In this document: one piece after another, positions 52,460 to 64,000 of the stretch
Numbering within the stretch: the first letter of the stretch is position 1
How the letters are laid out: every line of letters starts with the position of its first letter
Assembly: GCA_021108035.1 (NCBI GenBank)
Contig: JAIORQ010000026.1
Location: 1-64,000 of the forward strand
Direction of reading: 5' to 3'
Source of the DNA: Bacteroidales bacterium
GTDB taxonomy: Bacteria > Bacteroidota > Bacteroidia > Bacteroidales > JAADGE01
DNA: 64,000 bases
Notes under the pieces: generated by a model
The model's database searches: none
What the model saw: the letters and a program-made list of their open reading frames with translations, nothing else
What the model was told of the DNA's origin: nothing
Translations under genes and position numbers: made by a program

Positions 52460-54322
52460 ATGAAAACAAAATTAATGATCAGTATGATTGCAATTTTATT
52501 AATTGTAAATCAATTAAATGCACAAAGAACAGTTACGGGAAAAGTAACTAATGAAGAAGGTGATGATTTGCCGGGTGTTACGATAATAGCTAAAGGTAGT
52601 AATGCTGCAACAATCTCTGATTTGTCCGGTTCATACACATTAGTCGTGCCTGACAGAGTAATAACTTTGATATTTCAATATATCGGATATCAAGATGTTG
52701 AAAAGCCGGTTGCAGATGTTGTAAATGTTCAAATGAAGGCAGATATGGAGATTCAAGAGGTAGTTGTTACGGCTCTTGGCAGAAGAAGACCGTTAAAAAG
52801 ATTAAGTTATGCAGTAGTTGGTTCATCTAACAGGGTTAAAGTAAAGGGATTTTCAAGTAATAAAAATCATAGAGAAATACCAATTGATCATAATACAGAA
52901 GAATACGATCATATTTCTGAAAATGTATTTAAAAGTGCAAAAGATAATCCTGTTTCTACTCTGTCAATTGATGTTGATAATGCATCCTATTCAAATGTAA
53001 GACGATTTTTAAATGCAGGACAACTACCGCTGAAAGATGCCGTTAGAACAGAGGAAATGATCAATTATTTTACTTATGATTATCCTGAACCGCAAGGAGA
53101 ACATCCTTTTTCATTTATAACGGAATATTCTGAATGCCCTTGGAATAAAGAAAATAAATTATTACATGTTGGTATTCAAGGTAAAAAATTAGATTATAAT
53201 GATCTTAAACCTTCAAATTTTGTATTCCTTCTCGATGTTTCAGGTTCTATGAGCTGCAATAATAAATTGCCCTTATTAAAAAAGTCATTATTAAAATTGA
53301 TTGATAATCTCGGCAGAAAAGATAAAGTTTCTATTGTTGTATATGCCGGAGCGGCAGGCCTTGTTTTACCTCCGACTCCCGCCTATGAAAAGGATAAGAT
53401 ACGAAAAGCATTAAATAAGTTAAATGCAGGCGGATCCACAGCAGGAGGTGCCGGTATAAAGCTGGCTTATAAAACCGCTAAAGAAGCATATATTAAGGGC
53501 GGTAATAACCGAGTGATATTGGCAACCGACGGAGATTTTAATATCGGCACTTCATCAACAAGCGAGTTGGTCAGACTTATTGAAGAAAAAAGAAAAGATG
53601 ATATTTATTTGACAATTCTCGGTTTTGGAATGGGAAATTATAAAGACGGCAGAATGGAACAGATCAGCAATGCCGGAAACGGAAATTATTTCTATATTGA
53701 TGACATTAAAGAAGCTGATAAAGTTTTCGGAAAAGAGATGAGAGCCAATATGTTTACAATAGCTAAAGATGTTAAGATTCAAATTGAATTTAATCCTGCA
53801 AATGTAAAAGCATATAGATTAATCGGATATGAAAACAGAATTTTAAATAAAGAAGATTTTGACGATGATACAAAAGATGCAGGTGAACTCGGACCCGGAC
53901 ATACTGTTACGGCTTTATATGAAATTGTTCCGGCAGGATCAAGTACTGAAGTAAAAACTTTTGGTAAATTAAAATATCAGACTGCTGTGTTTAACGGAAA
54001 TTCAAAATTTAAAGATGAATTAATGACATTGAAATTCAGATATAAACCACCGAAAGAAAATAAAAGCATTTTAATAGAGCATATTGTTCGTAATGAGCTT
54101 ATTAAATTGAATAATACATCTGATAATTATAGATTTTCGGCATCAGTTGCAGCTTTCGGTATGTTGTTAAGAGATTCTGAATTTACGGGTAATTTTGACT
54201 ACCCTAAAGTGATTAAACTTGCTTCCGGTTCAAAAGGAAAAGATGAAAATAAATACAGAAAAGAATTTATTGAATTGATAAAAAAGGCAGAAAACATTAA
54301 AGATAATTTAGCTGATGAATAA
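52460..54322 (+). CDS. YfbK-like VWA protein with transplanted SusC N-terminal domain
   Basis: The 620-residue protein has a signal peptide (ending LNAQ), a carboxypeptidase-regulatory-like domain (about residues 23-95) and a TonB-box-like EVVVTALG that is otherwise a SusC feature. Then follows a vWF_A-type N-terminal region (about 150-250: EEYDHISENVFKSAKDNPVS then TLSIDVDNASYSNVRRFLN), a VWA domain with the MIDAS motif DVSGSMS (about 250-420), and a C-terminal DUF3520-like region (SASVAAFGMLLRDSEFTGNF). Proteins of this kind are exported and of unknown function; the MIDAS suggests metal-dependent binding. The VWA part is a near-copy of the next gene. Confidence 0.88.
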   Translation: MKTKLMISMIAILLIVNQLNAQRTVTGKVTNEEGDDLPGVTIIAKGSNAATISDLSGSYTLVVPDRVITLIFQYIGYQDVEKPVADVVNVQMKADMEIQEVVVTALGRRRPLKRLSYAVVGSSNRVKVKGFSSNKNHREIPIDHNTEEYDHISENVFKSAKDNPVSTLSIDVDNASYSNVRRFLNAGQLPLKDAVRTEEMINYFTYDYPEPQGEHPFSFITEYSECPWNKENKLLHVGIQGKKLDYNDLKPSNFVFLLDVSGSMSCNNKLPLLKKSLLKLIDNLGRKDKVSIVVYAGAAGLVLPPTPAYEKDKIRKALNKLNAGGSTAGGAGIKLAYKTAKEAYIKGGNNRVILATDGDFNIGTSSTSELVRLIEEKRKDDIYLTILGFGMGNYKDGRMEQISNAGNGNYFYIDDIKEADKVFGKEMRANMFTIAKDVKIQIEFNPANVKAYRLIGYENRILNKEDFDDDTKDAGELGPGHTVTALYEIVPAGSSTEVKTFGKLKYQTAVFNGNSKFKDELMTLKFRYKPPKENKSILIEHIVRNELIKLNNTSDNYRFSASVAAFGMLLRDSEFTGNFDYPKVIKLASGSKGKDENKYRKEFIELIKKAENIKDNLADE

Positions 54323-54499: not shown

Positions 54500-56392
54500 A
54501 TGATAATGAAAACAAAATATTTTTTAAACGTACTTATTTTTCTTCTGCTTGCAAACTTTTCATATTCTCAAACAGCTGTAAAAGGATTAGTAACAGATGA
54601 AAAAAATAAAGCTTTATACGGAGTTAAAGTTACCGTAAAAAATACACATATTTCAACCAAAACTTTAAAAGACGGTACTTTTGCCGTTAATGTTCCGAGC
54701 AATTCTTCAATATTGGTTTTTGCATTAAAGGGGAAACAAACCAAGGAAATCAAATTAACCGGAAAAACATACATTAAGGTAATTCTAAAGGATGTTGTTC
54801 AAGTAATTGAGATTGTCAAGGATGAAGCTGAATTTGAATCGGATGATGCACCTGTGTTTGGGAATGTAAGTAAAGTATCCGGATCTAAAAAGATGTATTT
54901 TAACATCAGAAACACAAATAGTTATATGAATTATGATGATGGCGGCGATAATTTTAACACAGAAGAATACGATCATATTTCTGAAAATGTTTTCAAAAGT
55001 GCAAAAGATAATCCTGTTTCTACTTTGTCAATTGATGTTGATAATGCATCCTATTCAAATGTAAGACGGTTTTTAAATTCCGGAAAACTGCCTTTAAAAG
55101 ATGCTGTTCGTATTGAAGAAATGATCAATTATTTTACTTATGATTATCCGAATCCGCAAGGTGAACATCCTTTTTCGTTTATTACGGAATATTCTGAATG
55201 TCCGTGGAATAAAGAAAATAAACTATTGCATATTGGAATACAAGGTAAAAAATTAGATTATAACGATCTTAAACCTTCAAATTTTGTATTCCTTCTCGAT
55301 GTTTCAGGTTCTATGAGCTGCAATAATAAATTGCCCTTATTAAAAAAGTCATTATTAAAATTGATTGATAATCTCGGCAGAAAAGATAAAGTTTCTATTG
55401 TTGTATATGCCGGAGCGGCAGGCCTTGTTTTACCTCCGACTCCCGCCTATGAAAAGGATAAGATACGAAAAGCATTAAATAAGTTAAATGCAGGCGGATC
55501 CACAGCAGGAGGTGCCGGTATAAAGCTGGCCTATAAAACCGCTAAAGAAGCATATATTAAGGGCGGTAATAACCGAGTGATCTTGGCAACCGACGGGGAT
55601 TTTAATATCGGAACTTCATCAACAAGCGAATTGGTAAGGCTTATTGAAGAAAAAAGGAAAGATGATATTTATTTGACAATTCTCGGTTTTGGAATGGGAA
55701 ATTATAAAGACGGCAGAATGGAACAGATCAGCAATGCCGGAAACGGAAATTATTTCTATATTGATGACATTAAAGAAGCTGATAAAGTTTTCGGAAAAGA
55801 GATGAGAGCCAATATGTTTACAATAGCTAAAGATGTTAAGATTCAAATTGAATTTAATCCTGCAAATGTAAAAGCATATAGATTAATCGGATATGAAAAC
55901 AGAATTTTAAATAAAGAAGATTTTGACGATGATACAAAAGATGCAGGTGAACTCGGACCCGGACATACTGTTACGGCTTTATATGAAATTGTTCCGGCAG
56001 GATCAAGTACCAAAGTAAAAACTTTTGGTAAATTAAAATATCAGACTGCTGTATTTAACGGGAATTCAAAATTTAAAGATGAATTAATGAGTTTAAAATT
56101 CAGATATAAACCACCAAAAGATGACAAAAGCATTTTAATAGAGCATATCGTTAAAAATTCGGCTCTTGAATTGAATAATACATCTGATAATTTTAGATTC
56201 TCGGCATCAGTTGCAGCTTTCGGAATGTTATTAAGAGATTCTGAATTTACGGGTAATTTTGACTACCCGAAAGTGATTAAACTTGCTTCCGGTTCAAAAG
56301 GAAAAGATGAAAACGGATACAGAAAAGAATTTATTGAACTTATTGAAAAAGCAAAAAAAATATTTACAGGAATTGCTGACAAGACAGATTAA
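54500..56392 (+). CDS. YfbK-like VWA protein, second copy
   Basis: The 630-residue protein has a signal peptide (ending FSYSQ) and its own, unrelated carboxypeptidase-regulatory-like domain (about residues 24-100: AVKGLVTDEKNKALYGVKVT). From about residue 152 it repeats the neighbouring gene: EEYDHISENVFKSAKDNPVS, DVSGSMS MIDAS in the VWA domain, and the DUF3520-like C-terminus. The central ~840 bp of the VWA coding part is almost identical with the first copy, whereas the flanks differ at many silent sites. Start could be ATG 54500 or 54506; the second gives a more usual signal peptide. Confidence 0.88.
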   Translation: MIMKTKYFLNVLIFLLLANFSYSQTAVKGLVTDEKNKALYGVKVTVKNTHISTKTLKDGTFAVNVPSNSSILVFALKGKQTKEIKLTGKTYIKVILKDVVQVIEIVKDEAEFESDDAPVFGNVSKVSGSKKMYFNIRNTNSYMNYDDGGDNFNTEEYDHISENVFKSAKDNPVSTLSIDVDNASYSNVRRFLNSGKLPLKDAVRIEEMINYFTYDYPNPQGEHPFSFITEYSECPWNKENKLLHIGIQGKKLDYNDLKPSNFVFLLDVSGSMSCNNKLPLLKKSLLKLIDNLGRKDKVSIVVYAGAAGLVLPPTPAYEKDKIRKALNKLNAGGSTAGGAGIKLAYKTAKEAYIKGGNNRVILATDGDFNIGTSSTSELVRLIEEKRKDDIYLTILGFGMGNYKDGRMEQISNAGNGNYFYIDDIKEADKVFGKEMRANMFTIAKDVKIQIEFNPANVKAYRLIGYENRILNKEDFDDDTKDAGELGPGHTVTALYEIVPAGSSTKVKTFGKLKYQTAVFNGNSKFKDELMSLKFRYKPPKDDKSILIEHIVKNSALELNNTSDNFRFSASVAAFGMLLRDSEFTGNFDYPKVIKLASGSKGKDENGYRKEFIELIEKAKKIFTGIADKTD

Positions 56393-58165: not shown

Positions 58166-60775
58166 ATGGCAAAGAAAGTTGTAGAAACACCTTTAATGAA
58201 ACAATATAATCAGATTAAATCCAAACATCCTGATGCTGTTTTGTTATTTCGAGTAGGCGATTTTTATGAAACATTTTCAGATGATGCGATTAAAACTTCT
58301 AAAATTCTCGGAATTACTTTAACCAAACGTGCAAATGGTGCAGCTTCCTTTGTTGAACTTGCCGGATTCCCGTACCATGCACTTGATACATATCTTCCTA
58401 AATTAGTAAGAGCCGGACAAAGAGTAGCTATATGCGAACAATTGGAAGATCCGAAAAAAACAAAAAAAATTGTTAAAAGAGGAGTAACAGAATTAGTAAC
58501 ACCGGGTGTAGCAATTGGGGACAGTATTTTAGAGCATAATGAAAATAACTTCTTGGCAGCTGTTCATATTGATAAACAAATAGCAGGAATTTCTTTTCTT
58601 GATATTTCTACCGGTGAGTTTTATCTCGCTGAAGGAAGTTTTCAATATATTGATAAATTATTATCAAGCTTTTCACCTAAAGAAGTTTTATATGAAAGAA
58701 GCCAATACGAAAAATTTAAAGAACTTTTCGGCACAAAATATTATACATATAAATTAGAAGATTGGGCATTTACCGAAAGCACATCTGAAGAACGCTTATT
58801 GAAGCAATTCGATACAAACAGTCTTAAAGGTTTCGGTATCAATACAATGAGATACGGTGTTACAGCGGCAGGTGCAGTTTTGCAATACTTAGACCTCACC
58901 GAACACCGAGATATAAAACATATTACACGTATCTCAAGAATTGAAGAAGACAAATATGTTTGGTTGGATAAATTTACAATCAGAAATTTAGAAATATTCC
59001 AATCTTTCGGAGAAAATTCAAAATCATTATTGGATATTATTGATAAAACTGTATCTCCGCCCGGTTCCAGATTAATGAGAAGACGGCTTGCGTTACCTTT
59101 AAAAAATCTGCAATCAATTCAAGAACGCTTGGATTTAGTTGGGTTTTTTATTAAAAATCCTGAAGAAAAGGAACAAATCTCTAAACTGATTAAACAAACC
59201 GGAGATTTAGAGCGAATGAATTCAAAAATTGCTTCTCAAAGAATAAATCCTCGTGATGTTTATCAACTGAAAAATGCACTGTTTGCTGTTGAAGACATTA
59301 AAAATATTTGTCAGAATTCAAATAATGATAAACTGAAAAAAGTAGCTGATTCTTTGAATCCGTGTATAAATATCAGGGAAAGAATTGATAATGAAATAAA
59401 AGAAGATCCGCCTACTGCCATACAAAAGGGTAATGTGATAAAAGAAGGTGTATCAAAAGAACTTGATGATTTAAGAGAAATTGCATATTCAGGTAAAGAT
59501 TATCTTCAAAATTTGAAAAGGGATTTAGCCTATAAAACCGGCATTGCATCATTGAAAATTGGTTTTAATAATGTATTCGGCTATTATTTTGAAGTAAGGA
59601 ACAGATTTAAAGATATGGTTCCGCAAGAGTGGACAAGGAAGCAAACTCTTGTGAGTTCTGAACGATATATTAACCAAGAGTTAAAGGAATATGAAGAAAA
59701 AATTTTGGGTGCAGAAGATAAGATATTAGTGCTTGAAAGCAAATTGTTTGAAAATCTGATTATCAGTCTTGCCGATTATATTTCATTGATACAAACAACA
59801 GCACAAGCTACTGCTAATTTAGATGTTTTGTTGTCATTTGCTCAAACAGCAGTTGATTATAATTATTCCAAACCGGAAGTAAACGATTCTTTAGAGATAA
59901 ATATTAAACAAGGAAGACATCCTGTTATTGAAAGACAGCTTCCGATTGATGATCCCTATATCCCTAATGATGTTTTCTTGGATACTGAATCGCAACAGAT
60001 TATCATTATTACGGGACCAAATATGTCCGGAAAATCGGCTTTATTAAGACAAACTGCATTAATTGTACTAATGGCACAGATTGGGTCTTTTGTGCCGGCA
60101 GAGGACGCAAAAATCGGTTTTGTGGATAAAGTATTTACGCGTGTAGGAGCATCTGATAATATTTCTTCCGGAGAATCAACTTTTATGGTTGAAATGAATG
60201 AGGCGTCAAGTATCCTGAACAATTTATCTGAACGCAGTTTAATTCTTTTTGATGAATTGGGTAGGGGAACCAGCACCTATGACGGAATTTCAATTGCTTG
60301 GTCAATTGTTGAATATATACATGAGTATCCCAAAGCAAAAGCAAAGACCTTGTTCGCGACTCATTATCACGAACTTAATGAAATGGAAAAATCTTTTAAT
60401 CGAATTAAGAACTTTAATGTTTCTGTTAAAGAACTTAATCAAAAGATAATATTTTTAAGAAAGTTGGTGCAAGGCGGCAGTGAACACAGCTTTGGTATTC
60501 ATGTTGCAAAACTTGCCGGTATGCCGCAAAGTATAGTAAAACGTGCAAATATAATTCTTAAAGAACTTGAACAATCCCACCGTAAAGAAGAATTAATTGA
60601 AAAAGTTGATGATCTTGCAGAAAACCGCGAAGGATTTCAAATGAGTATATTCCAATTAGATGATCCCGTATTAAAACAGATCAGAGATGAAATAGCTAAT
60701 TTGGATATTAATAATCTCACCCCCATAGAAGCCTTGAATAAGCTGAATGAAATTAAGAAGCATTTAAATCTGTAA
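58166..60775 (+). CDS. mutS: DNA mismatch repair protein MutS
   Basis: MutS recognises mispairs and small loops. The 869-residue protein has the mismatch-binding N-terminal domain with the Phe-x-Glu motif ([10 protein letters not shown], about residues 27-36), connector, lever and clamp regions, and the ATPase with Walker A GPNMSGKS (about 617-624), the [20 protein letters not shown] signature, Walker [13 protein letters not shown] and FATHYHEL. It ends at the usual [11 protein letters not shown] dimer helix. The start ([20 protein letters not shown]) is as in other Bacteroidota MutS proteins. Confidence 0.97.
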
Positions 60776-60943: not shown

Positions 60944-60990
60944 CTTTGGCAAACTTATCATACAGAATTATTTTATCTTTCAAATAAAAA

Positions 60991-61130
60991 TTAATTTTCA
61001 AGAACAATATTTCCGTTTTCATCTAATTTTACAATCCAATAATCGCAAGCTCCGTGATTACCGCTGACATCAGCGTCATATAACACAGAAAAACCGGCAA
61101 CAATATTACTGCTTTCTATTTTTTTATTGA
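60991..61130 (-). pseudogene. C-terminal remnant of a DYWIVKLDENGNI-repeat protein, copy 1
   Basis: Read on the minus strand, the segment encodes SSNIVAGFSVLYDADVSGNH then GACDYWIVKLDENGNIVLEN and a stop. The motif DYWIVKL-D-x-NGN is typical of repeat/propeller proteins of Bacteroidota. No start codon or upstream domain remains. The same fragment, with a frameshift, occurs at 63033-63160. Confidence 0.65.
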
Positions 61131-61158
61131 GGGTTTCACTTCAAGTGAAGCCCTCAAT
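61126..61158. terminator. Hairpin downstream of the first Fib_succ_major gene
   Basis: ATTGAGGGTTTCACTT / CAAGTGAAGCCCTCAAT, 16-bp arms with one mismatch-like G-T pair and T-runs. It lies 60 bp after the stop codon and is exactly repeated at 63167-63199. Confidence 0.75.
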
Positions 61159-61217
61159 TTTTCAAAAAAATTCGCTACGCGGTAAAATAATCAAATAATC
61201 GAATTGTAAAATAAATT

Positions 61218-62576
61218 CTAATCCCGTAAACAGCGAACTGAAAACCCATAACTCTTATTGCTGCTGCCACGATTTACACCGCTGTTATCGTAGAGCAGTC
61301 TCCGGTACCATGCGTATGTTGCATCGTACTCGGTAGCCGACCAAAAATAGCTGTTGCTGCCAAGACCGCCGAAATCACCGTGATCGTAGTGGCGGTAACC
61401 ACCCGGAAGAGCAGTAAAACCGCTTTCGTTTGTAGCATCTGTATTTGGGTTGTCCCAGTGTGTTATGCCGGCTTCTTTCATTTTACCGCCTTCATCTGTT
61501 CCTCGCCAGCCGGTTGCATCGGCTTGTGCCTGCGTCATGCCAAGTTCCATTTCAAGTTCTTTCCATTCTGCATCACTTGGCAAATGCCAGTCGTCAGGGC
61601 AAACTCCTTGTACTCCGCTGGGGTTGGTATTGCTGCTAACGGCATTATCACCCATTGCTGCTGCCCATGTGTATAATGCTCCGTAGGTATCAGCTTCGCC
61701 CTCGTTGTTATTATTATAATAACAATAAGCATCATCGGTATTATTATCGCCAAGATCAGCCCAAACAATATGATCTTCTACAAGAAGTATTCCTGTGCCG
61801 TTATGATAACGGGTTACTTTAAGGTTTTCTTTTAACCATATTTGGTTGCCTATTACAACTGTATTGTATATGTTTCCGTCAATATCAGTAATTTGATAAG
61901 GAGCAGTTGTAAACATTTTTTCTTCACCGTAACTTGTTCCTCCGTCATTTGTAGCATAAGCACGTACATAATAAGTTTTGTTTTCTGTTAAACCGGTTAT
62001 TTCATTTATAAACGCTCCTATTCCGCCTCCGTCTTCTGTACAGAGGTCGGATATTGTAGGATTTTGACTTGTACTCCAACATACACCGCGTTCTGATACA
62101 TCAGAACTGCCGGCATTTGTTACGTTGCCGCCGCATGTTGCAGTTATGTAATTAATATTTGTAATTTCATCAGTTGTTACAATTGGTGTTGTTATTAGTT
62201 CTAATGTCGTAAAATTTTGTTCGGTTTTGCCGTATCTAATTTCATCTTCTTCGGCATAAGCTCGCAAGTAATAAGTTGTATTTGGAGCGAGCTCTGTAAT
62301 TTCTTCGGTAAATATACCGATTTTTGCATTTTCTCCGGCGTATATTGTTTTACTGTCTTTAACAGTAGGCATGCTTCCTGTTCCGTAACAATAACCGTAT
62401 GTTTTCAAATTATCACCTACTTCAAGTATCTCGGTTGATACGCTTACACTGTTATAAGTTATGTTACTTACTTCCGATTGTGTATAAATAGTTTTTGTAA
62501 TTAATTCAAATCTTTTACAGCCGGTATAGCTTAAAAGAAAAATTGCCGAAGCTGTTAGGAAAAGTGTTTTTTTCAT
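61218..62576 (-). CDS. Fib_succ_major-domain lipoprotein with hypervariable C-terminus
   Basis: The 452-residue protein has a signal peptide with lipobox (LLSYTGC, about Cys20), two or more fibronectin-like repeats (ENKTYYVRAYATNDGGTSYG pattern, about residues 30-220) and a C-terminal Fib_succ_major domain (about 225-452: DIDGNIYNTVVIGNQIWLKE, GVCPDDWHLPSDAEW, FWSATEY, GFSVRCLRD). The fold is of the FGE-sulfatase/C-type-lectin type. It is probably displayed on the cell surface and may bind ligands. The segment from GGYR to GFSVRC differs strongly from the neighbouring paralogue at 63259. The start was set at MKKTLFLTASA (62576), which has the signal peptide. Confidence 0.85.
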   Translation of the reverse strand: MKKTLFLTASAIFLLSYTGCKRFELITKTIYTQSEVSNITYNSVSVSTEILEVGDNLKTYGYCYGTGSMPTVKDSKTIYAGENAKIGIFTEEITELAPNTTYYLRAYAEEDEIRYGKTEQNFTTLELITTPIVTTDEITNINYITATCGGNVTNAGSSDVSERGVCWSTSQNPTISDLCTEDGGGIGAFINEITGLTENKTYYVRAYATNDGGTSYGEEKMFTTAPYQITDIDGNIYNTVVIGNQIWLKENLKVTRYHNGTGILLVEDHIVWADLGDNNTDDAYCYYNNNNEGEADTYGALYTWAAAMGDNAVSSNTNPSGVQGVCPDDWHLPSDAEWKELEMELGMTQAQADATGWRGTDEGGKMKEAGITHWDNPNTDATNESGFTALPGGYRHYDHGDFGGLGSNSYFWSATEYDATYAWYRRLLYDNSGVNRGSSNKSYGFSVRCLRD

Positions 62577-62820
62577 TAAAATAAATTTATAAATAATATA
62601 ATTATTCTTATATTCGTGCTGCACTACAGAAAGGGTTTACACAAAAACAAAATTTCTTAAACAGACAATTTATTAACAATTTAAATATTAAGTTTATAAT
62701 AGATTATTTTCCTTTATACAAGTCCAATTTGTCATAAACCAAAATTAATTCAGTTAAAAACTAAACTGAAAAAGTTTCCAGATTAATCAATTTACTTTTT
62801 AACACAATTGATTTAGTCTG

Positions 62821-63199: not shown

Positions 63200-63258
63200 T
63201 TTTCAAAAAAATTCGCTACGCGGTAAAATAATCAAATAATCGAATTGTAAAACAAATT

Positions 63259-64000
63259 CTAATCCCGTAAACAGCGAACTGAAAAGCCATAACCCTTATT
63301 GTCCAAGCTATGGCTTACATTGCTGTGATTGTAGGGGAGTATCCGGCTATGTGTGCACGTCCCACCGAACTCGGTATACTCGGTAGCCGACCAAAAAATG
63401 CCGTGGATACCAAGAGAATAGAAATTACCGTCATTGCAGCGACGGTAACCACCCGGAAGAGCAGTAAAACCGCTTTCATTTGTTGCCCCTGTATTTGGGC
63501 TGTCCCAATGGTCAGTGCCGGTTTCTTTCATTTTTCCGCCGGCTACACTTGATCCTCCCAAATAATCTGTTAGTTCCGTCCATTCGGCATCGCTCGGCAA
63601 ATGCCAATCGTCAGGGCAAACTCCTTGTACTCCGCTGGGGTTGGTATTACTGCTGACGGCATTATCACCCATTGCAGCAGCCCATGTGTATAATGCTCCG
63701 TATGTATCAGCTTCGCCCCCGCTGTTATTATTGTAATAACAATAAGCATCATCGGTATTATTATCGTCAAGATTTTCCCAAACAGTATTATCTTCTATAA
63801 GAGGTATTCCTGTGCCGTCATGATAACGGGTTACTTTAAGGTTTTCTTTCATCCATAATTGGTTGCCGATAATAACTGTATTGTAAGTATTTCCGTCATA
63901 GTCAGTAACTGTTGAAGGAGCTGTTAAAGTAGTAAAAGTTTTTTCATCTCCGTAGCTTATTCCCACAGAATTTATTGCATAAGCTCTTACATAATAAGTT
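63259..64000 (-). CDS. Fib_succ_major-domain protein, partial at window edge
   Basis: The reading frame is open to the end of the window, so the start lies outside. The visible 246 residues begin in a fibronectin-like repeat (YYVRAYAINSVGISYGDEKT) and include a complete Fib_succ_major domain (DYDGNTYNTVIIGNQLWMKE, GVCPDDWHLPSDAEW, FWSATEY, GFSVRCLRD). It is the paralogue of the gene at 61218. The N-terminal half of the domain is conserved with mostly silent changes; the C-terminal part is highly divergent. The downstream 250 bp is about 97% identical with that of the other gene. Confidence 0.85.
   Translation of the reverse strand, partial: TYYVRAYAINSVGISYGDEKTFTTLTAPSTVTDYDGNTYNTVIIGNQLWMKENLKVTRYHDGTGIPLIEDNTVWENLDDNNTDDAYCYYNNNSGGEADTYGALYTWAAAMGDNAVSSNTNPSGVQGVCPDDWHLPSDAEWTELTDYLGGSSVAGGKMKETGTDHWDSPNTGATNESGFTALPGGYRRCNDGNFYSLGIHGIFWSATEYTEFGGTCTHSRILPYNHSNVSHSLDNKGYGFSVRCLRD

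Follow-up and report, generated by a model that had tools for sequence, protein, structure and literature searches.

Probable orphan variable regions of a diversity-generating retroelement in two tandem Fib_succ_major genes of a Bacteroidales bacterium

Two tandem genes and their divergent tails

The window analyzed here is a stretch of 64,000 nucleotides from a Bacteroidales bacterium (JAADGE01 in the GTDB lineage; assembly GCA_021108035.1, contig JAIORQ010000026.1, positions 1 to 64,000). Its genome, here G000, amounts to 4.96 Mb in 116 contigs and is 95% complete. Near the end of the window lie two tandem paralogous genes, both on the reverse strand, whose 3' ends a sequence-only reading had proposed to be variable regions (VRs) of a diversity-generating retroelement (DGR). 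The relevant features are as follows.

61218-62624, reverse strand: gene 1, C-terminal Fib_succ_major domain, lipoprotein-like; listed start GTG at 62624
63259-64000, reverse strand: gene 2, tandem paralog of gene 1, continuing past the end of the window
61248-61397, reverse strand: VR of gene 1, 50 codons
63289-63447, reverse strand: VR of gene 2, 53 codons (three more than in gene 1)
61221-61247, reverse strand: GFSVRCLRD, conserved tail of gene 1, by its position a putative counterpart of the initiation-of-mutagenic-homing site of DGRs
60987-61217, reverse strand: post-stop tract of gene 1, 231 bp, sharing 96.5% identity with the tract after gene 2

For gene 1, the ATG at 62576 (MKKTLFL) is a likelier start than the listed GTG. 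Both genes match Fib_succ_major in Pfam (PF09603; E = 2.6e-46 for gene 1 and 3.4e-42 for gene 2), and ten such domains were found in G000 at E 0.001. A lipobox-like motif (SYTGC / FSTGC) was spotted by eye. In the predicted structure of the domain (predicted local distance difference test score, 86), the variable codons correspond to model residues 155 to 204, which contain the last strands. Against PDB folds, the top matches were the Lcl C-terminal domain, the Bd2740 C-terminal domain and 4eps, all weak (E 0.1 or worse), with some C-type lectins lower in the list amid unrelated folds and likewise at E 0.1 or worse. Among viral structure models there were three clear matches, two named Fib_succ_major and one nameless, and a sequence search of the PDB with the domain alignment (A1) gave nothing up to E 0.1. 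The domain of both genes is probably a C-type-lectin-like binder carried on a lipoprotein-like surface protein.

The two tails differ in an unusual way. Between GGYR and GFSV (50 aligned codons), genes 1 and 2 differ at 19 first, 18 second and 11 third codon positions, which bears out the excess at the first two positions described before (some 28 against 8, over fewer codons but in a similar ratio). The ratio of nonsynonymous to synonymous divergence (dN/dS) is 1.07 in the tail and 0.26 to 0.52 across the remaining gene. The earlier statement that the upstream half of the domain differs mainly at silent sites holds for codons 314 to 409, directly upstream of the VR (10/11/25 differences, dN/dS 0.26), but not for codons 245 to 313, where changes are evenly spread (9/8/9, dN/dS 0.52). 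The N-terminal part has a dN/dS of 0.35 and a dS of 0.71. As had been noted, FWSATE and FSVRCLRD are unchanged, at the protein level, and the noncoding DNA after the stop codons is nearly identical; this near-identity starts at the end of the VRs (61218-61247 and 63259-63288) and extends over the 231 bp of the post-stop tract. Codon use also shifts along the genes, with an NNC/(NNC+NNT) fraction of 0.54 and 0.49 in the tails of genes 1 and 2, 0.36 and 0.32 upstream, and 0.16 to 0.24 in four genes elsewhere in the window. When sites were classified by three real DGR templates, the two genes differed at 29/65 template-A sites and 16/111 non-A sites (odds ratio, 4.8; Fisher P = 1.3e-5).

Templates and flanks of intact retroelements

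Homologous loci were fetched with alignment A1, taking the best 80 of 549 from genomes and 79 of 149 from viral contigs. A motif scan identified DGR-type reverse transcriptases (RTs) in nine of these 159 loci, and tblastn with the RT of locus L114 found matches in 4/80 genome loci and 8/79 viral loci. Three loci (L114, L127 and L133) have the gene order target, Avd, template repeat (TR), RT, and their template and VR differ over 196, 193 and 159 nt by 33, 24 and 24 mismatches, respectively, all at template adenines. A fourth DGR, also with target, Avd, TR and RT intact, lies in the window's own family in a different genus (G020:C156; 26 A mismatches and no non-A mismatch between VR and TR). 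Another genome of the family (G018:C411, L262, positions 359-1811) has an RT followed by an N-rich open reading frame (ORF), GGSWNNNADNCRVANRNNNN, which, by reading only, looks template-like for another target family; the family would then have two types of DGR.

Compared with the template of G020 (TR_G020), gene 1 is mismatched, at codon positions 1 and 2, at 32/62 A sites and 10/66 non-A sites. Of the 21 AAY codons of this template, 17 are altered at those positions in gene 1, all 21 aligned codons end in a pyrimidine, and 18 retain the template third base. The corresponding numbers (altered, pyrimidine-ending, same third base) are 18, 20 and 16 for gene 2; 18, 21 and 17 for the ortholog in the congeneric genome G010; and 20, 21 and 18 for the real VR of L114. 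The earlier suggestion that the variable codons ending in C or T derive from AAY codons is supported. Among other homologs, the third base was retained in 3 (C42), 6 (G005C6), 7 (C26_87k, C115 and G007), 11 (G011C256), 13 (C8 and G010C427) and 14 (G004C43) of the 21 codons; the tails of C8, G010C427 and G004C43 may have been DGR-written themselves.

The third-base agreement was evaluated on altered AAY codons ending in a pyrimidine only, with P computed at a C-use of 0.35 or at the codons' own C-use. Gene 1 retains 15/17 third bases of TR_G020 (P = 4e-5 and 0.017, respectively) and 15/18 of the L114 template (TR_L114; P = 0.001 and 0.006), while gene 2 retains 14/17 of TR_G020 (P = 2e-4 and 0.10). 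By third bases, then, the case for gene 1 is good and that for gene 2 is weaker. Over all sites, mismatches to TR_G020 are concentrated at adenines in both gene 1 (31/65 A versus 23/111 non-A, P = 2e-4) and gene 2 (34/65 versus 29/111, P = 4.5e-4); an adenine-biased pattern against homologous segments thus exists, though against templates of other genomes and also in two other homologs, G010C427 and G007.

We also ranked homologs by a VR-likeness score averaged over four templates. Gene 1 came 10th of the 92 scored, among the DGR-linked VRs of L114 (1st), L133 (2nd) and L127 (12th), and gene 2 sits at the cut of 0.60. Since the score partly reflects codon use (genomes rich in C score higher) and the cut was chosen after the ranking had been seen, it cannot serve as proof for an individual locus. 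It is backed by the finding that parts of DGRs (RT or Avd) adjoin 7/32 VR-like genome loci and 0/48 of the others (P = 0.001). In G000 itself, a paralog (C8:35936-36415, L038) has a VR-like tail in which 13/19 altered AAY codons retain the third base of the L127 template (TR_L127), and downstream of its stop lies a hairpin with a perfect 7-bp stem; this tail may be one more frozen VR.

Downstream of the stop codon, the noncoding DNA of genes 1 and 2 also resembles that of DGR targets.

61173-61203, reverse strand: flank of gene 1, TTTGAYTATTTGAYTATTT-like motif at 61185-61203 and hairpin CGC-GTA-GCG at 61173-61181
63214-63244, reverse strand: flank of gene 2, motif at 63226-63244 and hairpin at 63214-63222

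A TTTGAYTATTTGAYTATTT-like stretch followed by a small hairpin whose loop has the form GNA is common to gene 1, gene 2, the G010 gene, L114, L133, L127 and G020. The stems have 7 bp in G020 (TCTTTGC-GTA-GCAAAGA), 5 in L127 (ACCGC-GTA-GCGGT), 4 in L133 (CCGC-GAA-GCGG) and 3 in genes 1 and 2, at the aligned place downstream of the VR; by eye, those of L114 (CCGT-GAA-GCGG) and G010 (CTGC-GTA-GTGA) contain G.T pairs or mismatches. In L114, L127, L133, L261 and both window flanks, TTTGAYTATTT repeats precede the hairpin with its 3-nt GNA loop. Calling the motif at 14 or more matches out of 19, we found it in 16/38 VR-like and 1/54 other homologs (P = 9e-7). Without the 10 homologs lacking a stop within 40 codons and the 7 seed sequences in which the motif had been spotted, the counts were 9/29 versus 1/46 (P = 6e-4) at the cut of 0.6 and 9/38 versus 1/37 (P = 0.014) at 0.5. 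Within the window, the pattern occurs four times with up to three mismatches, all within the two flanks as overlapping pairs; shuffled windows had a mean of 1.14 occurrences, and four were reached in 1/100.

In the Bordetella phage BPP-1, a hairpin after the VR is needed for efficient retrohoming (PMC3240598). Like the small hairpins here, it is formed by inverted repeats downstream of the VR around a loop of the G..A type, but stems there have 7 to 10 bp with 4-nt GRNA loops, 4 to 34 bp after the VR, whereas in the flanks compared here stems have 3 to 7 bp with 3-nt GNA loops, 29 to 43 nt past the stop, and the TTTGAYTATTT motif stands before the hairpin. A larger palindrome (ATTGAGGG...CCCTCAAT), found at 61124-61162 and at the corresponding position downstream of gene 2, was rejected as the DGR hairpin, as it recurs at at least seven other sites of the genome (40 of 164 candidate sites were scored) and four DGR targets lack it in the flanks that were compared. 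It is probably a terminator or a small intergenic repeat.

The tails match templates of intact DGRs much as real VRs do and are followed by a DGR-target-like 3' flank, so that by descent they look like VRs. To that extent the proposed link to DGRs is supported; a DGR working in this genome is not.

Machinery in the genus and the ortholog of a sister species

Searches of G000 and 13 congeners turned up neither a DGR RT nor a template, an outcome that the sequence-only reading had named as speaking against it. In G000, the single match to RVT_1 (PF00078), at C52:97271, was rejected as a DGR RT, as it adjoins cas1- and cas2-like ORFs. The L114 RT query matched in none of the 14 genomes of the genus and in 3/21 genomes of the family (G020 and, more distantly, G018 and G016). 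RVT_1 gave seven matches in five of the 14 genomes of the genus. The six that we inspected are, by reading of their ORFs, presumably of intron, CRISPR or other fragment types; we take G010:C490 and C14 to be of the group II intron type, G002:C162 of the RT-Cas1 type, G005:C12 a group II type fragment and G011:C54 a eukaryotic-looking fragment. The seventh, G010:C611, gave no match to the DGR RT query.

Searching G000 with TR_L114 returned the VR of gene 2 as the best match (E = 3e-7), the others being at E 0.04 or worse, and no template; TR_G020, searched in the genus at E 0.01, matched only the gene 1 VR and that of the G010 ortholog. When the last 20 kb of the window and 11 fetched loci were each compared with themselves, no pair mismatched solely at A emerged. 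As for Avd, G000 has 13 matches to the four-helix-bundle family PF05635. None of the nine that were compared with three DGR Avds is of the DGR type (best match, E = 5e-6 with 26% identity, while the DGR Avds are 72 to 99% alike mutually), and four-helix-bundle genes near contig ends were rejected as Avd on the same nine of 13.

The state of the tail could be followed in G010, where contig C504 has the same neighbors on both sides (the end of a mutS-like gene and a 482-amino-acid gene) and a single gene in place of the two of G000. The last 444 bp of the following gene served as a clock.

58166-60775, forward strand: mutS-like gene, syntenic anchor common to G010:C504, named by reading rather than by family search

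The mutS end gives a dS of 0.28 and a dN of 0.008 between the two genomes. Over the 50 codons of the VR, gene 1 and the G010 gene differ by four nonsynonymous and two synonymous changes (dN 0.034, dS 0.071, dN/dS 0.48), which fall on 2/65 template-A and 4/111 non-A sites, i.e., with no A excess. Independent writings would be expected to differ at tens of A sites, since the VRs of L114 and L133 differ at 33/64. With so few changes and no A excess, gene 1 was not rewritten in either lineage since the split, barring copy exchange; its divergence between the two species is ordinary and slow, another outcome that the sequence-only reading had named as speaking against it. The 5' end of the G010 gene is gene 2-like and its 3' end gene 1-like, a mosaic indicating that the locus recombines. 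The post-stop flanks of genes 1 and 2 are 91.1% and 88.6% identical to that of G010. Roux et al. (PMC8144416) report recent activity for 50 to 75% of the DGRs of each group, so activity often goes unseen even where a DGR exists.

Elsewhere in the window, 52460-54322 and 54500-56392 are tandem genes, von Willebrand-type by reading, that are ca. 95% identical across 1.38 kb (offset 2,064 bp, 68 mismatches) and differ in their N termini.

Competing explanations and wider occurrence

We think it quite probable that the tails of genes 1 and 2 are orphan, frozen VRs, whose machinery was lost or acted from an element that has vanished. Adenine-mutagenic reverse transcription of an AAY-rich template RNA would have yielded a cDNA that replaced the 3' end of the gene; the homology to templates is observed, and the writing process is modeled on known DGRs. 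As the absence of machinery suggests, the DGR would later have been lost from the lineage or would have acted from an element now gone. Both tails would now be fixed binding surfaces, vertically inherited and changing only through point mutations and recombination of the tandem copies with each other; in gene 1 this fixed state is seen by comparison with a single sister species, and it would extend to gene 2.

Several results weigh against this explanation. The assembly is 95% complete and in 116 contigs, so the RT and template could be in the missing part, and absence of the machinery is no proof; the cognate template was not found, and the tests use templates of other genomes. Six pairs of non-DGR-like homologs are also enriched in differences at template-A sites, more weakly (odds ratios, 1.6 to 3.4), so the A-site test alone is not decisive, and G010C427 (P = 9e-4) and G007 (P = 0.006) likewise pass it against TR_G020, with more non-A mismatches (40/111 and 42/111). 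The third-base signal is absent against TR_L127, which was rejected as the template of either gene (gene 1, 9/17, P = 0.24; gene 2, 8/16, P = 0.41, or 0.81 at its own C-use), and is modest for gene 2 against TR_L114 (11/17, P = 0.045, or 0.60 at its own C-use). At a cut of 0.7, without stop-less homologs and seeds, the flank motif no longer separates the classes clearly (4/14 versus 6/61, P = 0.08). L114, beside an apparently intact DGR, itself has an imperfect hairpin (G.T next to the loop), which makes the short hairpin of genes 1 and 2 only weak evidence of decay. Finally, slow change is known from one species pair and for gene 1 only, gene 2 having no ortholog.

A DGR could still be active, with its RT and template in the missing part of this metagenome-assembled genome or in a mobile element and with gene 2 or both genes as remote targets; such targets are known in cyanobacteria (PMC7517822). 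The flanks of genes 1 and 2 are closer to each other than to those of G010, but their VRs are not alike; rewriting of gene 2 once the flanks had been homogenized could account for this. We regard this as improbable, given the negative RT query across the genus, the template query that matched VRs only and the lack of rewriting of gene 1 since the split from G010. Moreover, the 16/111 differences between the two VRs at non-A sites exceed the divergence of the flanks, so the VRs are not both fresh copies of a single template. Least likely, and by our judgment very improbable, is that there was never any DGR and that diversifying selection between paralogs shaped the tails as ligand-binding surfaces. 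Such selection does produce a dN/dS near 1, homologs without DGR-like third bases are equally variable in the tail, and the A-site enrichment of other homolog pairs fits as well. It leaves unexplained, however, the third bases kept in altered codons in agreement with the templates of intact DGRs and the DGR-target-like noncoding flank, and gene 1 shows no such selection against its ortholog, as its VR dN/dS indicates. The genes may instead have been written elsewhere and imported or reshuffled as finished cassettes by horizontal transfer or recombination, with no DGR in the lineage. This is unlikely but the strongest of the alternatives, being favored by the mosaic G010 gene and by flanks that are 96.5% alike despite an N-terminal dS of 0.71; it overlaps with the explanation that we prefer, as both hold the tails to be DGR-written and now frozen.

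Fib_succ_major has already been published as a DGR target (PMC4159848, PMC8143477 and PMC8934634). Targets with Fib_succ_major or DUF1566 are described from human microbiomes (PMC4159848), where one example target is, like here, a predicted lipoprotein, and from the Bacuni phages of Bacteroides (PMC8143477). Those phages carry RT, Avd and template, whereas here RT and template were not found; the partial systems without RT listed in PMC4159848 each retain a TR-VR pair, while here no template was found. The closest parallel is all3226 of Nostoc PCC 7120, a paralog of a variable protein with remnant TR-VR homology and no RT gene or pseudogene nearby (PMC7517822). Like the genes here, it is a DGR-written target without machinery; it belongs to another phylum and target, and the account there speaks of nearby RTs only, whereas the assembly and 13 congeners were searched here. 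An open-access literature search for orphan or frozen VRs returned nothing closer, which leaves absence elsewhere unproven. Both the target family and the loss of machinery are thus known; what may be newer is that such loss is perhaps common here.

In the wider set of loci, 9/10 VR-like loci with at least 8 kb of flank on both sides had no DGR parts. The 28 VR-like genome loci without RT in their available flanks come from 27 genomes, 24 of which had no match to the L114 RT (E 1e-10); the control genomes of L114, L127 and L133 were positive in 3/3. With a single RT query and no completeness given for the genomes, this survey is a lead and not a count of losses. The three genomes with RT matches despite RT-less locus flanks are G032, G037 (the genome of L151, where the RT is cut short) and G042 (four RT matches). 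L090, L091 and L093, in RT-negative genomes, still have Avd-like stretches beside the target. G032 contains DGR RT frames in pieces (C249:52585-53650, C37 and C215), perhaps decaying DGRs, plus a full-length RT elsewhere. A tentative generalization, which we put forward without leaning toward it, is that frozen VRs could be a usual end state, the DGR being a transient receptor factory whose written receptors outlive the machine ("write once").

If our explanation is right, hypervariable-looking tails in the large Fib_succ_major family would be a fossil record of DGR activity, and such fossil tails could be recognized without an RT by third-base agreement with templates together with the short noncoding flank. 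A DGR-like codon pattern alone would not show that hypermutation goes on today. The proteins of genes 1 and 2 would then be candidate binders selected through a DGR and kept afterwards.
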